A DNA stretch of 64,000 nucleotides from Paralichthys olivaceus (lineage: Eukaryota; Chordata; Actinopteri; Pleuronectiformes; Paralichthyidae). Shown here piece by piece: positions 18,088 to 35,000 of this stretch (position 1 is the first letter of the stretch; each line of letters starts with the position of its first letter). Both the position numbers and the translations under genes were made by a program. Below the pieces are notes generated by a model that had not been told where the DNA came from, ran no database searches, and saw nothing but the letters and a program-made list of their open reading frames with translations. Location of the stretch: the NCBI RefSeq assembly GCF_024713975.1, contig NC_091104.1, positions 10,063,580 to 10,127,579 on the forward strand, given 5' to 3'.

Positions 18088-18897
18088 TTTATTTGTCAAG
18101 GGGAAAAAACTTCAAATGTTTGATAGGACTTCATGTTACATCACTGGAAGCGTTCTTGCTTCTAAATCCACTGGGCAAAGCGGACATTACATGTTACTAC
18201 AATTAATAAACAGAGCAACTGAGTTTGTTTTGCTTATTTACAACCCTCCCCAAAAGTAATTCCCATTATAAAGAGAGAAAATGAGTGTTTAAAACACATC
18301 ACTGATCAAACTACTTCAGAAATCAGCTACATACAAACAGCAGAAAGAGAACATGTGGTTTAACTTACACCGAAAATTCTTCTAATGTAAGAAAGTAAGT
18401 CTGTCGAGCTAATCAATCATAAACAAGCCAAAACTTTGCTTGTTTAAAAGTATTTTAAGCAGATCTGGAGAATTGCAATTTTCACCCGTTCAATTTTAAA
18501 ACACTTTTTTCATCATTTCTTCCAAACTAGTATAATTACATTCATATGTTTCTATATATTTTCTATCTTCCTGACACTAAATTATCGCATGTTACTTGTC
18601 ACTTATAACTTGCTGATGTATTTTGATTCTTGCTGCTGTAACACTGTAAATTTCCCCATTGTGGGACTAATAAAGGACTTCTTATTAATCTTAAACAATT
18701 GTGTTGATTTTGATTAAATCATCACCAACGCTGTGGTTCTCTGACAGACTGCATTTCAGGACTATTCTATTTCACTTTTAATACAAAAGCAAATCGAGCA
18801 TTCCAATATCATGAATAATCTGGTAGATAAACAACAACAAAAAAACGTACAAAGAAACAAGCAATAACATTGAACCTGTCGACTCCTCTCGTGCAGC
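18088..18897 (-). other. tra2b: tra2b 3' UTR
   Basis: The sequence from the TGA stop to a minus-strand AATAAA at 18093-18088, about 0.8 kb and AT-rich. A LINE/SINE-type tail is inserted on the opposite strand at about 18610-18700. A longer form is possible. Confidence 0.45.
18610..18700 (+). mobile_element. 3' tail of a LINE/SINE-type retroelement
   Basis: The sequence TGTAAATTTCCCCATTGTGG followed by GACTAATAAAGGAC is a tail I recognise from abundant fish retroelements (L2-like by memory). A related tail occurs at 50735-50790. Only the 3' end is visible. Confidence 0.5.
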
Positions 18898-21800
18898 TCA
18901 GTAGTGACCTGTAAAGAAAATGACAAAAAGGATATGAACATATTTAATAATTGTTAGTTCTTGTGGATCTAATAAATTACAAACTGTTCCAAAGACAGCT
19001 AATGTGTGAAAATTTAATGGCTGAATTTTTATATGAATTTTCAATAAATCAATATATTCTAATCACTGCGGTTGAATGATAGAAAGATGGTTTAAACTCA
19101 CGAGGTGAGTAGGACCGGGACCGGGATCGAGAGCGGTAGCCCCTGCTGTAGTAAGGAGATGGAGATCTGCGTCTGGAGAGAGAAAAAGAAAAATACATCA
19201 CTTCACCCGAGGTCTTGAATTGGATACATGTTTACGATCACTGAATGAATCAATTAGTTTGAACCAGGAAATTCTGAAAGCTGAATCATCAATGGCTCAA
19301 ACAGGCCACAAAGAACCAACCTGTATGATCTGTACTCTCTGTCCTCATAACGATCATAGTCCCGGTCGTATCCTCTATCATAGCCTCTGTCGTAGCCCCT
19401 GTCATAGTCCCTTGAGACGCGCCGTGACGAACCACCACTACTGCTGCTTCCGCTGCCGCTGCCACTGCCTCCGCCTCCACCACCACCACTAAAAGATACA
19501 CAGAATTAAGTTAAGCCTGGAAGACACCACAAACAGAACAAAAACAAAACAAAATATCTTGACTCTAAAAATATATGAAGGCGATGATGGTGGAGAAACA
19601 CTTACTATGTGGGACGCCCCATGTAGATTCCAGGGGTGGGGGTGTGGGCTCGTTTAGTAATGGAGAAATCCACTCGGATCCTGCGTCCATCGAGCTCCAT
19701 TCCATTAGCACGCTCCTTCGCCTGAAACAAACAGAAATAGACTTTTGAAATAAAACGTACTTGCTGTGAAATGGGAAGTAAATACTCAACACAATAAATA
19801 AATAAATATGTTTCCTCGTCTCGTTCTCCATACCTCATTAGAGTCTTCTCGATTTTCAAAGTAGACAAAGGCAAAGCCTCGCGAACGACGCGACTGTTGG
19901 TCGTACACAATGTTGACGTCACTCAAGGGGCCATATTTAGAGAAAACATCCCTCAGATCTCTCTCAGTGGTGTAGAGGCTCAGTCCAAACACACCCAGAC
20001 AGCTGTTGGGATCAGGGTTGGCCTATGAGAGAAAAGAGATGTGAAGAGAGTGAAAACACTGTAATGTAAAAAGCTGTTCATGAATACATATGCATTGTAT
20101 ATGATATGCAGTTGATGCATGTGGATAAGCTGGGAAATTCACAGAGCAGGGTAAAATAGCTAGTGCTATATTAAAGGTGATAGCTGAGAACATTTTCTGG
20201 ATTTTCCGGGATTTTGGTTTAGAATTAAACGGTTTGCAAGTTCAATGTTTCAGCTCTGGATGTCAAATTCATAAAGACTGTCACTGTGCACAACAAAAGT
20301 GGTTTCACTCATGATCTTCCCATATTAAGACACTGGACACCGGTTTAACTCAGTTCAACTGCTGTGAAGGTTATCCGATCACAAATGTCAAATTCACAAA
20401 CAAAGTATATTTAAAGCCTCTACAGACCCTGTTACCAATGTGTCTGCGTCGGTTTGACATGGGGGATCGGCTATGGCTCCTCCGGTGACGATACTCCCCG
20501 CTACGAGATCTGCTCCTGGAGCCGCGTCTACGAGAGCGGGAACGAGAGCGGGAGTAGTGCCTGCGTGAGCTCCGGTGGGACCGGGACCTGGGGATATGAC
20601 AGAAATGTGACTCTTCCAAAACAGACATACACAACTGTTAGTGTTTAAGAATCCACACATCACAACCAACTGAAGCCAGTCGTACCTAGATTTGGATCTA
20701 GATCGCGAACGAGACCTGGACCTGGAATGGCGGGAGCCATCTTTGGAGCGTGCTGGCGAGTGGCTGGTTGACTTGGCAGAGCCCCGAGGGGATGCACTCC
20801 TCGAGCCGGGCCGAGAGTCCTAGACACACCAGACACCGAGGTCAGGAACACTCTGACGCCAAGCGCTTGTCAAAAAACAGGAATTAGGGGACAGAAGGTG
20901 GTGGCGCTCGCCCTCCACGTGACTCTTTCAGAAGGAGTTCACCATATATTTGATGTTTAACAGGTTTTACACAAAATAATTAGATATTTGATAACATAAA
21001 GTCGTACATTGTAACAAATTTTATAATTTAGCTTGAAATTGTAATAGAACAAAAAATAAGCCTAAAATACATGTAAGGATGGACCAGTGATGTTTCTGAT
21101 AAAGAGAGGAAATAAATTGTGCATGCTTTAGAGAAAGAAACAGGATGAAATAGAGCAAATTGTTAGGAAATTACTCATACCCTGGTAAACTTCTGATCTT
21201 AACTTCATTACTTCTGTAACTTCATTACTTCAACAACAACCCTTCATTTCTTCTTTCTTCTCTTTGACATTATGACTTCTTTTTTCCTCCTCTTCCCCCA
21301 TTTATCATCTGCCATTACAACACTAGTAGTGGGGACAGATCTTGATCGCTTCTTTTCAGCATCCAACACATTAGCATGCATCAACACCATCAGCGTCAAA
21401 CAAAACAACTTCGCATCTGAAATCGTCTTCCGCCTTTTTCTTTCTTCCAACCTCAACCTTAACAAAGAACAAACAAGGGTGGTAAGGCATGATGTTGGTT
21501 TCTGTTGAAAACCAGAAAGGTACAAAGAAAACAATTGCAAAAGAACATAGATCAGGTGAATACATGTCAGTATGTTAGCTTGACAAAGTCTCAAGAGCTG
21601 CAACAAAATACATATTTTATCCATTTATTAGTTTGAGTATCTTCTTGCTTCGTCTCAATTATTTGCTTCATTTTCCCAAAAGTAAATGTTTTATTAACAA
21701 ACGCAACTTTAGCTTTTTGGGCTAAAAAAAAATGTTGGGAATCAACATTTCCAAGTTTGCTGATCGATTAAATCAAAATACTGCACGCGATGTAACCAAT

Positions 21801-22195
21801 GATGGAGAAGAATCAATAGTTGTGTTTAACAACCATTCACCAACACTATGGATATCTGTCAGTAATAACAAACACTGGTGGTGGGTTAGCTACACCTGCA
21901 GCTGTGCTCTGTTGGTCCTTATGCTTTAGCTTAGCAAACGTTACGACACATTCACGCTGCGTTTATTACAGTACAGTATCTCTATAAGTAGTGGCTGCTG
22001 GCACGTGACGCTAAAGTCAATCTCACACAGGTAACATTTAAACTTTAGGTCTGAGGCCCGTTTTTAAAATGTGTTTCCACCATCGGCCCTGCAGGCATGG
22101 CTAAGCTAGCTCTGAAAACATCAGCTAGCTAAACGTCATATTTTTAAAGGGGATTTTCTCACCTGCTCCCTGAACTCTTTCTCGTTGTCACTCAT
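18898..22195 (-). CDS. tra2b: Transformer-2 beta splicing regulator
   Basis: Nuclear SR-like protein that binds GAA-rich exonic enhancers. Coding exons: 22163-22195, 20686-20819, 20428-20587, 19834-20022, 19606-19721, 19321-19488, 19102-19172, 18898-18908; 293 residues, against 288 in human. Order: RS1 domain (residues 12-109); RRM (about 118-195) with RNP2 VFGLSLYT and RNP1 RGFAFVYF; the conserved linker [13 protein letters not shown]; a Gly/Ser run; [12 protein letters not shown] repeats; RS2 ending RSYSPRHY. Most diagnostic residues are TRA2B-like ([29 protein letters not shown]), but MSNRRRH, PLSDVN and KRAHTP are TRA2A-like. Adjacency to senp2, as near human 3q27, favours tra2b. The RS1-to-RRM exon uses a weak GTCTGT donor. 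Levels are probably autoregulated through the poison exon in intron 1. Confidence 0.9.
21181..21457 (-). other. tra2b: candidate tra2b poison exon (non-coding, NMD)
   Basis: In intron 1, the acceptor TTCTTTGTTAAG and the strong donor CCAGG|GTATGAGT bound about 277 bases. Read in phase from exon 1 ([11 protein letters not shown]), it gives [13 protein letters not shown]... and a TAA after 28 codons; 277 also shifts the frame. The 3' half is packed with AGAA/GAAG motifs (AAAGAGAAGAAAGAAGAAAT), the known Tra2 binding sequence. An alternative acceptor exists at 21502 (TTTTCAACAG). The position, stop and GAA content match the autoregulatory exon known in mammalian TRA2B. Confidence 0.75.
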
Positions 22196-22350
22196 TTTCT
22201 AACGTTGTTTGACAAAAGATGCGTAAAATCTAAGTGGTGAAGTAGCTTTAACGACAGATTTCACGTGACAGTGACGAATTTAACGCGACGCAGACGAAGC
22301 TGATCGGAGGCGGCTGAAGGAATGTTCGAGTCAACAGCGGGAGGTTTCCT
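22196..22350 (-). promoter_or_regulatory. tra2b: tra2b 5' leader and promoter
   Basis: CpG-containing sequence upstream of the ATG with ETS-like GGAAC/TTCCGG (about 22350). Start site not determined. GCTAGC/GCTAAG-type motifs cluster just inside intron 1 (22096-22135). Confidence 0.4.
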
Positions 22351-22630
22351 GTTCCGGTTGGATTTTCAAAATAATAAAAAAGTATACAAACCCTTTCATT
22401 TGCGCAAAGCAGAAAATTAAAGGGAAAATAAATGTTTGACCACTGATGCAATCGATTTCTTCAGTGAATAGATATTATTATCTACTACTGGGGCTGTAAC
22501 AAACTATCAACACTTACCTTACAATACCTTTGTTCACATTACATTTTAAAATGAAGACAATTATGACAATTTATCCTAATAGAGATTCAAACATCCAGCT
22601 CCACGTGAACCCTCCAGTAAAAATATCAAA
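22351..22630. other. short intergenic gap
   Basis: AT-rich sequence between the tra2b promoter and the senp2 polyadenylation site. Nothing recognisable. Confidence 0.4.
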
Positions 22631-29560: not shown

Positions 29561-29576
29561 TTCATCGGTGTTGCGT

Positions 29577-29785
29577 AATAATGTTCAACAACACGAAGAA
29601 ATAATGAACTGATTCAAATACTTCACTAATAATGTTCAACAACACGAGGAAATAATGAACTGATTCAAATACTTCACTAATAATGTTCAGTTACATGAAG
29701 AAATAATGAACTGATTCAAACACTTCACTAATAATGTTCAACAACATGGCCTGAGGAAATAATGAATAATTTCAATACAAAATAA
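29577..29785. repeat. 51-bp tandem repeat upstream of senp2
   Basis: About 3.6 copies with exact 51-base spacing (ATGTTCA at 29581, 29632, 29683 and 29734). The unit contains GAAATAATGAACTGATTCAA. The last copy has a short insertion (GGCCTGA) and then decays. It lies immediately upstream of the senp2 promoter. Confidence 0.95.
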
Positions 29786-32088: not shown

Positions 32089-35000
32089 TCACCCAACTTG
32101 TAGGTAATGCATCTCACCTTGCCTGGCTCCCACCAAACGTTGCTGCACTTTCTCTAGATGGTGGATATATTCTGTCAGGGATCCTTCTGGATCCTGAGAC
32201 GCTCCCCCTGAATGCCCAGAGGGAAGGGTGGTGCTGGAGTATGACCTAAACAAAGACGAAAACAATTACTTTTAACTGACTGACACAACTGTTAGGTCTC
32301 GGATTAAAAGACTCTTTGATAAAGTGTGGGCCAAACCTGTTGTGCAACCTGAAGGGTGATTTGCTGGGTGGGACGAGAGCCGACACCGTGTCTCTATTCG
32401 GGGACGAGTCGTAATTTGATCTGGACTGTTGCTGCCTTAAAACTTCAGCTTTAGGCCCTGTAGTAGACGGTAAGATTTAAAATGCACCCACTCACACAAA
32501 CACAGGATGAATATAATGTTAAACTAGGTTTACCGAGCTGACCTGGAGCATGACCATTGACAGTCCCAGATATAGATAATCTTCTGATTGCTTTCTGCCA
32601 TTTCCTGGTCAGGAACCTCATTCTGAAACAAAGAGTGAGGAGTTTGAGTTATCCACAATCAAGGCCGAGGTAACTTAAACTACTTTTAAATGCTGGTATA
32701 TATAAAACCCTCATGCTCTACCTTGAGATCGCAATGACAGCTCGTACAGCAGCTCTAAATCTCCTGAGGGGCCGGTGCAGGGAAGAGAGTGGTGGCGAGG
32801 GCCACGCCCCCATACGAGCAATGACACACAGTGTGACCTGCTCACAGTCCTGGAAACCTCCCAACAGCAACAGCAGGTAACGCTTCTGATACACCAGAGC
32901 TTTCCTGAAGCTCTCAGCACGCAGGTAACGCTCATACAAACGCTGCACCTGCAAACCAGTAAACAGAAGATACGTCAGTGTCTTTACACATGGTCAGTTC
33001 TAACAAGGGGATTCTTAAATGTCATTTGGCTGGTGCAATTGACATTCATGGATTAATGAACGGAGAAAATTAATTGTTTGAGAAACAAAAGTATAACCTT
33101 TTAAGGATGCCTTATATTTTCGGTGCATCTGTGTAAATAAATATAAAGTAATGTATCTAAATCTAATTTCATCATACGATATAAAAGATCAGATTTCACA
33201 TGAATGCTCTCTTGATACCTTTCAAATATTAATGTCATATTTTAAAATAAAATATCTAAAAACTGAATACAGATACAACAAAACACTTTTCAGGATCACA
33301 GCAAATCTATTTGATGTACACCAAAATTCTGCAGTAACAAATGTGTGCATGTGCATCCATTTCCAACTCACCTTGCTGTTGTTGATCACATCATTGATGG
33401 GTCTGTTTTCAGTTTCTGCCGTGACCTTGGCAAGCTGGTTCTCAGAGTGGCGCAGCTGTCGCTCCAGGAAGGTGAGTCTGTGTTTGTGAGTGGCTCTCTC
33501 CTGACTCAATGATGTCATACGCTCCGTCAGCTCCGAGTTCTCACTCAACAACTTCTCCAGCAGAGTGGACGATGGTGACGTGGATGAAATCTACAGTGAG
33601 AGAAGTACATCTATTTTGGCAACATTTAACAATGAATACAATGTTTGTGTTGTTACTACCACCATCAATAATAACAGTGCTGTATGTGATAATTATAACC
33701 ACTTGTGTACCTGCTGGTTTTGTTGTGAGCTTCCTGCCTGAGCGCCGTCAGTTTGGAGCTGCTGCTGCTGTGTGGATGCAGGCTTGTGTTGTTGCCCTGT
33801 GGTCCGTCCAGACATCCTCTGAGCAGCCATCTCTCTCTCCTCTCGTTCCAGCTCTGCTAGAGTCTGCTGCAGCTCCTGCATTCGCTGCTGATCCTGCTGC
33901 CGCAACAACTCCAACTCACACTAAAGTGAGAAATGTACATCAGGTGCATTTTTTAGTCTCCAAAATGATCCTGAATGTGAGCACTGTATTTGTGAAGGAA
34001 GTGAGCACATTAGAGAAAAGTAAGAACTTTGTCAATAACTTACCAGTTTGTTAGTGGTCCTCTCCTGACGTCTCTCTTTCTCCATCTGATCTTGCCGCCC
34101 CTTCCTCCTTTCTCTCTCCCACAGCTCCTCCCTCTCCCTCTCTTTGTCCTTCATCAGTCGGAGTCTCTCCTTCAGCTCTGCGAGTTCCACCCCAAGGCAC
34201 CTGGACCGCTCTCGCTCCACCTCCAAAGCACGGCTGGCTTCCTGTTTCTGCTCCTTCAAGGTCTCCATCGCCACACGCTGTCGAGTGGTGGCCTCCTGTT
34301 CTTTCTGCAGCTCCTCCCTCCTTGTTCTGTCCTCCTCTTCACATTTCCTTCTGCTCTGCAGTAACTCGGTCCTCAGTTTGGCCATCACGGCTGCCAGCTC
34401 CTCTCCCTGCATTCGCTCCTGCTCTAGCTGGCTGCGCATGTCAGAGATAAACTTCCTGTCTCTGGCTGAGTCGGCCTCATGTCTGCGGCTAAGCTCATCC
34501 AGCTGCCTGGAGCATCGGTCTCTCTCTTCGTCCAGCTTCCTGTGAGCAGCTGCAAGTTTAGAGTGAATCTCACCTGAGCGAAATTCTGCTTCGGTCAAGA
34601 GACGCTGGATACGAGTCTTTTCTTTCAGGATGAGATCGTGTTGCTGGGCAGAATGCTGACGTTCATCTTCTAGCTCCTTCTGGGTGTCGTCTACCCGTTT
34701 CTCCAGCAGCTCACTGCGCGACTGTTCAATCTGTAGCTCACGTCTGAGGTTGCTGCATGCCACCCTCTCCTGCTCTACATGACCCTTCAGAGCCATGACC
34801 TCTGACCTCTGTTGATCAGAGGATACTTGCATAGCCTGGAGAGAGAAGAGGTGTATCAGTTTAAAAGTGAGAGCTGAAGCACACTTTGGATTCTTAACAC
34901 TGTTTGATCTTTGACTGATTTTTCTGTGTTTAAGCTAATGAAGTGTATACACTATACACAGTATACACTGTCCTCATCTTACCTCTCTCCTTTCTCCCGC

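Follow-up and report, generated by a model that had tools for sequence, protein, structure and literature searches.

The first intron of a tra2 gene in the 64-kb stretch of DNA analyzed here (the window) holds a GAA-rich segment of 277 nt that is very probably a poison exon of the gene, be it tra2b or tra2a. Judged from the DNA, it is most likely the fish counterpart of exon 2 of mammalian TRA2B (uc.138). No other reading fits the evidence nearly as well: the gene family and the intron are the right ones, the length is 277 nt against 276 nt, an extreme GAAG density is confined to the exon, and the splice sites are usable. The segment lies on the minus strand between exon 1 and the first RS-coding exon of the gene model, and its coordinates (21457 to 21181) are exactly those at which the original prediction had placed it. 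The features are collected in Table 1.

Table 1. Features of the candidate exon and of the surrounding gene, labeled tra2b according to the assignment favored in the text (positions are those of the window)
Feature	Position	Strand	Basis or remark
Candidate tra2b poison exon, short form, 277 nt	21181..21457	-	splice consensus at both ends, in-phase TAA, top GAAG density on both strands
44-nt 5' extension if the upstream acceptor is used (exon of 321 nt)	21458..21501	-	acceptor score 8.1 vs 7.8 for the inner acceptor (provisional matrix)
TAA stop in phase with exon 1, 277-nt form	21371..21373	-	exon nt 85; codon 40 from ATG; 190 nt before exon end
TGA stop in phase with exon 1, 321-nt form	21244..21246	-	exon nt 256; 63 nt before exon end
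Donor AGG/GTATGA	21175..21183	-	score 5.6
Possible branch-point A (CTTAC)	21483	-	motif match alone; 26 nt from inner acceptor
Possible branch-point A (CTGAT)	21552	-	motif match alone; 51 nt from outer acceptor
Exon nt 17-44 aligned to mammalian TRA2B exon-2 oligonucleotides	21414..21441	-	22/28 identical, one 2-nt gap
tra2b exon 1, coding part (11 residues)	22163..22195	-	gene model; ends in phase 0
Next tra2b coding exon, RS1 region	20686..20819	-	gene model; directly follows exon 1 in the productive message
tra2b coding exon, RS1 region	20428..20587	-	unusual donor AGG/GTCTGT
tra2b coding exon, RRM first part	19834..20022	-	gene model and RRM searches
tra2b coding exon, RRM second part	19606..19721	-	gene model and RRM searches
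Last three tra2b coding exons (19488-19321, 19172-19102, 18908-18898)	18898..19488	-	Gly/Ser linker, RS2, stop

The minus strand carries a complete tra2 gene, whose eight coding exons (Table 1) join to encode an uninterrupted RS-RRM-RS protein of 293 residues. The RRM of this protein was recognized by Pfam (5.5e-21), and its best solved relatives are structures of human TRA2B (2kxn; E value, 3.1e-54). Intron 1 is 1343 nt long, with 705 nt before the candidate exon and 361 nt after it.

The protein and its neighborhood lean toward tra2b over tra2a, though not with certainty. Compared with working versions of the human TRA2A and TRA2B sequences, the RRM is identical to TRA2B at 92 of 102 positions and to TRA2A at 88 of 102, and the whole protein at 215 of 268 and 206 of 277 aligned positions, respectively. 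Among the 16 RRM positions that differ between these human sequences, 9 are B-like, 5 are A-like, and 2 are neither. The upstream neighbor on the same strand is a SENP1/SENP2-type protease gene (Peptidase_C48, Pfam); the first 13 residues of its product resemble the start of SENP2, and human SENP2 lies near TRA2B, while the catalytic part of the protease is tied between the two, with 113 of 206 identities to both SENP1 and SENP2. Although the RRM leans to TRA2B, a Gly/Ser linker (19488-19321, minus strand) directly follows it; this layout, together with a C-terminal DRYEDxxYR stretch, resembles that of human TRA2A. Should the gene be tra2a, which the linker, the C-terminal stretch, and the A-like RRM positions would favor, the exon would be the fish Tra2a poison exon and would work by the same mechanism, so that this is a case within the poison-exon reading. 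It would also fit a published description in which AGAA is more abundant in the poison exon of TRA2A than in the TRA2B exon (PMC4175592). Given the B-like majority of RRM positions, the higher identities to TRA2B, the SENP2-like neighbor, and an exon length nearer to the 276 nt of TRA2B than to the 306 nt of mouse Tra2a (PMC3240583), we consider the tra2a assignment unlikely; a length of 306 nt is matched by neither form of the exon described here (277 or 321 nt).

As had been predicted for what we take to be a tra2b poison exon, both ends of the segment match the splice consensus, with an AAG acceptor at the 5' end (preceded by ...TTTGTTAAG) and AGG/GTATGA at the 3' end (followed by GTATGAG). 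AAG is an uncommon acceptor trinucleotide. In a provisional scoring matrix, with candidate sites defined as consensus matches, the inner acceptor (21457) reached 7.8 and the donor 5.6, inside the range of the constitutive tra2b exons (acceptors, 4.3 to 15.7, n = 7; donors, 3.8 to 11.4, n = 7). On the minus strand, 3.6% of AGs and 5.2% of GTs score at least as high as the candidate's own sites. Two possible branch points precede the acceptors (Table 1), and a TTCAC match is also found at 21557 (minus strand), near the possible CTGAT branch point. Elsewhere in the gene, the constitutive coding exon at 20428..20587 has the weakest tra2b donor (3.8). Just downstream of the candidate exon, acceptor-like sites with first exonic bases 21125 and 21095 (minus strand) score 9.6 and 11.3 in the same matrix; they lie 56 to 86 nt downstream of the poison-exon donor, outscore the true acceptor of the next coding exon (5.1), and could be decoys or mark the beginning of another alternative exon.

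Since exon 1 ends in phase 0, the reading frame runs on into the candidate exon up to the TAA at codon 40. Both the early in-phase TAA and the frame-shifting length (277 mod 3 = 1) that had been put forward for this segment are thus present, yet an in-phase stop occurred in 1999 of 2000 dinucleotide shuffles of the exon, by nt 85 in 1777 of those, and two thirds of random exon lengths shift the frame. Because chance alone gives both, they carry almost no evidential weight, and we rejected them as evidence for a poison exon.

The motif content is more distinctive. The 277-nt exon contains 20 GAA, 10 AGAA, and 14 GAAG motifs. The GAAG count is the maximum over all 277-nt windows on both strands of the window and is unique to the candidate exon; the GAA count is exceeded in one region only (21, minus strand, near 56.4 to 56.7 kb, within the long open frame of a coiled-coil gene), and the AGAA count is exceeded in the same region (13) and equaled at 63.4 to 63.8 kb on the plus strand. 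When intron 1 was divided into bins of 100 nt, the three bins overlapping the exon held 3, 3, and 8 GAAG motifs, compared with 0 to 2 in the 11 others, and the density drops sharply at both exon edges. We also collected all acceptor-donor pairs about 50 to 400 nt apart with scores at least equal to the candidate's own, which gave 356 pairs including the candidate (186 on the minus and 170 on the plus strand). The candidate exon is first among them in GAAG density and its 321-nt form second, which is to be read as a ranking and not as a formal test, since the matrix is provisional and the exon's own scores served as the threshold. By iCLIP, Tra2-beta clusters fall within the poison exons of human TRA2A and TRA2B, and binding is AGAA rich (PMC4175592).

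These counts bear on the simplest alternative, that the segment is a purine-rich stretch of intron 1 with splice-like ends arising by chance that never enters the mRNA. Such a stretch would be expected to contain an in-phase stop and to shift the frame, and splice sites as good as the candidate's are frequent enough to form the 356 pairs on the two strands. A chance stretch would not be expected to have the top GAAG density on both strands with sharp ends at both splice sites, or to sit in the intron where mammals keep a poison exon with a length of 277 versus 276 nt and a partial sequence match to it. We therefore regard this explanation as improbable and treat the segment as a putative poison exon below.

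A second acceptor at 21502, which the original prediction suggested could give two poison isoforms, is also present: a consensus AG stands at 21503-21502, the first exonic base would be 21501, and its score slightly exceeds that of the inner acceptor (8.1 versus 7.8). The resulting exon of 321 nt (3 × 107) keeps the frame. Its frame is open for 85 codons (21501-21247, minus strand), with a K/R-rich tail at the end, before a TGA is reached. Under the rule that a premature stop must precede an exon junction by more than 55 nt, both forms would count as poison exons: the distance from stop to exon end is 190 nt in the 277-nt form and 63 nt in the 321-nt form. Two poison isoforms are thus plausible, but the longer one would act without a frame shift and after a long open run.

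This open run raises the alternative that the 321-nt form is a coding exon, yielding a basic peptide of 96 residues (the Tra2 N terminus plus the K/R-rich tail) with a function of its own. Its divisibility by three would fit, and an open run of 85 codons was equaled in only 3 of 2000 shuffles in the same frame; the fraction was 7 of 2000 when any of the three frames was allowed, the frame and acceptor having been picked after looking. Purine tracts are poor in stops and help to lengthen the run, a TGA lies inside the exon, and a Pfam search with the peptide of the 321-nt form gave no family match. A coding role for the long form is, in our judgment, very improbable.

The sequence was compared with that of the mammalian exon. 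In human TRA2B, exon 2 has a length of 276 nt (PMC4848834, PMC6003563) and lies, according to a review, in intron 1 (PMC12469348); the mammalian exon is embedded in an element of 419 bp with perfect identity between human and rodents (PMC4848834), and the review gives 96% conservation to chicken and lizard (PMC12469348). In place of the full exon, four fragments were taken from oligonucleotides printed in three papers. A human forward primer from PMC6635519 and a mouse primer from PMC11791180 (complement in PMC10070813) overlap and together make up a 30-nt stretch. PMC11791180 also supplied the second and third fragments, a mouse probe and reverse primer, and PMC6635519 the fourth, a human reverse primer whose exon is not stated. 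The 30-nt stretch aligned with exon nt 17 to 44 (Table 1) with a score of 75, which was reached by 4 of 1000 and 29 of 5000 shuffles. The exon is the best place found for it on either strand, though by a small margin: masking the exon leaves a top minus-strand score of 67, and the plus strand reaches 73, almost as high as the exon. A window control, in which 0.4% of 1063 minus-strand windows matched the stretch as well as the exon does, was discarded, since its four windows are the exon itself. The other three fragments gave no alignment with the exon above chance (shuffle fractions, 0.16, 0.90, and 0.44); the best local match of the mouse probe (exon nt 234-259), considered as homology, was rejected as not significant and probably out of order.

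When the first three fragments were chained in order, the exon scored 22, a value equaled by 9 of 200 shuffles. Of 231 consecutive minus-strand segments none scored as high; the top one (19) overlaps the candidate exon. The third fragment falls in this chain at exon nt 215 to 236, off the GGGG of the exon; the mouse primer has a GGGG. As expected, 22 nt of the exon had no exact match in a scan of viral contigs.

From the 96% conservation to chicken and lizard reported for the TRA2B exon (PMC12469348), a near-identical fish exon might have been expected. As judged from the fragments, the fish exon is not near-identical to mammalian exon 2. The alignment with the mammalian intron-1 exon that had been proposed as a check was thus carried out by way of oligonucleotide fragments, with one of four above chance and three of four at chance level. 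Place, length, motif load, and one sequence stretch (22/28) agree with the mammalian exon, and the description of the segment as deeply conserved is supported only in part. One reading of this pattern, which we offer tentatively and consider rather doubtful, is that most of the sequence of the fish tra2b poison exon has turned over while its place, length, weak ends, and Tra2-motif load were kept, and that a second acceptor was gained, giving a longer, in-frame poison form. If so, what selection preserves in fish would be the motif load rather than the letters, and ultraconservation in amniotes would need an explanation beyond autoregulation alone. If the poison-exon reading is correct, setting a nearly letter-perfect amniote exon against what looks like a loosely matching but motif-dense fish exon could help to tell which part of the ultraconservation the feedback loop requires.

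By analogy with mammals, we infer inclusion of the exon in RNA, its binding by Tra2, decay or retention of the message, and a feedback loop. Abundant Tra2 protein would bind the GAA/AGAA array of the exon and help the spliceosome use the exon's weak acceptor, possibly also the alternative acceptor 44 nt upstream. The mRNA would then include the exon between exon 1 and the first RS exon. Translation would end at the in-phase stop, after 39 codons in the short form and 96 in the long one, without giving a working Tra2 protein. The exon-containing message would be degraded by nonsense-mediated decay (NMD) or kept in the nucleus; as the Tra2 level falls, the exon would be skipped and Tra2 protein made again.

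Mammalian Tra2-beta promotes the inclusion of two poison exons, its own and that of Tra2a (PMC3240583, PMC4175592, PMC12077678), and deletion of the Tra2b exon in mouse germ cells raised Tra2b expression and blocked meiosis (PMC11791180). The elements required for a loop of this type, namely a motif array, splice sites of modest strength, and stops, are all present in the fish segment. On the fate of the RNA, a mouse NMD study includes an Sfrs10-PTC primer pair among its qRT-PCR primers (PMC10070813), and in human colon cancer cells the exon-2 isoform was nuclear and was not raised by cycloheximide or UPF1 knockdown (PMC4848834). Given this human result, and with the stop of the short form only 120 nt from the ATG, a lack of response to an NMD block would not refute the fish exon, and such a test could mislead.

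The closest known system is exon 2 of human and mouse TRA2B (Sfrs10), to which the candidate is alike in its first-intron location, its length (276 versus 277 nt), purine-rich enhancers, several stops, and predicted use as a cassette. It differs in that the mammalian element is perfectly identical between human and rodents over 419 bp (PMC4848834), whereas one of four tested fragments exceeded chance here, and in that splicing, Tra2 response, and RNA fate have been demonstrated in mammals, whereas the fish exon is known from its sequence. The Tra2a poison exon (306 nt in mouse) shares the mechanism and an array of Tra2-beta sites but belongs to the paralogous gene and is longer (PMC3240583). 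A 2011 report on this exon found 48% of its positions shared by every vertebrate examined, among them tetraodon, stickleback, and medaka, and gave comparative and EST support that extends to zebrafish (PMC3240583). An element of this kind reaching into fish is therefore not new in kind. The poison exons of SRSF5 and SRSF6, whose conservation reaches fish, are likewise stop-containing cassettes that give unproductive splicing, with EST evidence from vertebrates including fish (PMC4379411), but they belong to other genes and introns, and origins vary from gene to gene in the SR family.

Among the literature matches listed, we recognized no report of a poison exon in fish tra2b; most subscription papers lay outside the search. 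The words zebrafish and fish are absent from the main text of PMC11791180 and PMC12632421, no mention of fish tra2b was found in the available text of PMC13247117, PMC8060298, and PMC13038199, and a paper on cod, in the portion available, merely cites TRA2B. The element is expected rather than surprising, very probably a known control element in another species; if the reading is correct, the Tra2 autoregulatory exon extends to a fish tra2b gene in which it can be tested directly.

Other modes of action were considered and dropped. RNA structure as the conserved unit was abandoned, the fold of the exon being nothing unusual (z score, −0.62; 54 of 200 shuffles fold as well) and an Rfam search of 18800-22500 giving no match up to an E value of 0.5. 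Premature polyadenylation was set aside in the same way, as neither AATAAA nor ATTAAA occurs between the exon start and the end of intron 1; the three intronic AATAAA motifs are all upstream. Within the exon, CCCC (nt 124 to 127) and GGGG (nt 159 to 162) can form a hairpin of 39 nt (21334-21296, minus strand), whose span resembles that of the human exon-2 stem-loop 449-488, which ends in GGGG (PMC4848834). Adding 150 nt of flank lowers its pairing from about 0.75 to 0.1, and we claim nothing from it.

The genes on the minus strand of the window follow each other, from high to low coordinates (57249 to 3274), as a coiled-coil gene, the SENP1/2-type gene, tra2, an Obg-like GTPase gene, and a C2H2 zinc-finger gene. 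The long coiled-coil gene contains a pericentrin/AKAP9 PACT domain at 32718-32993, and the GTPase and zinc-finger genes were identified by eye as ola1 and sp3-like, respectively. A tandem array with a 51-bp unit (3.4 copies, 91% matches) occupies 29576-29746, a short way upstream of where the first exon of the SENP-type gene lies.
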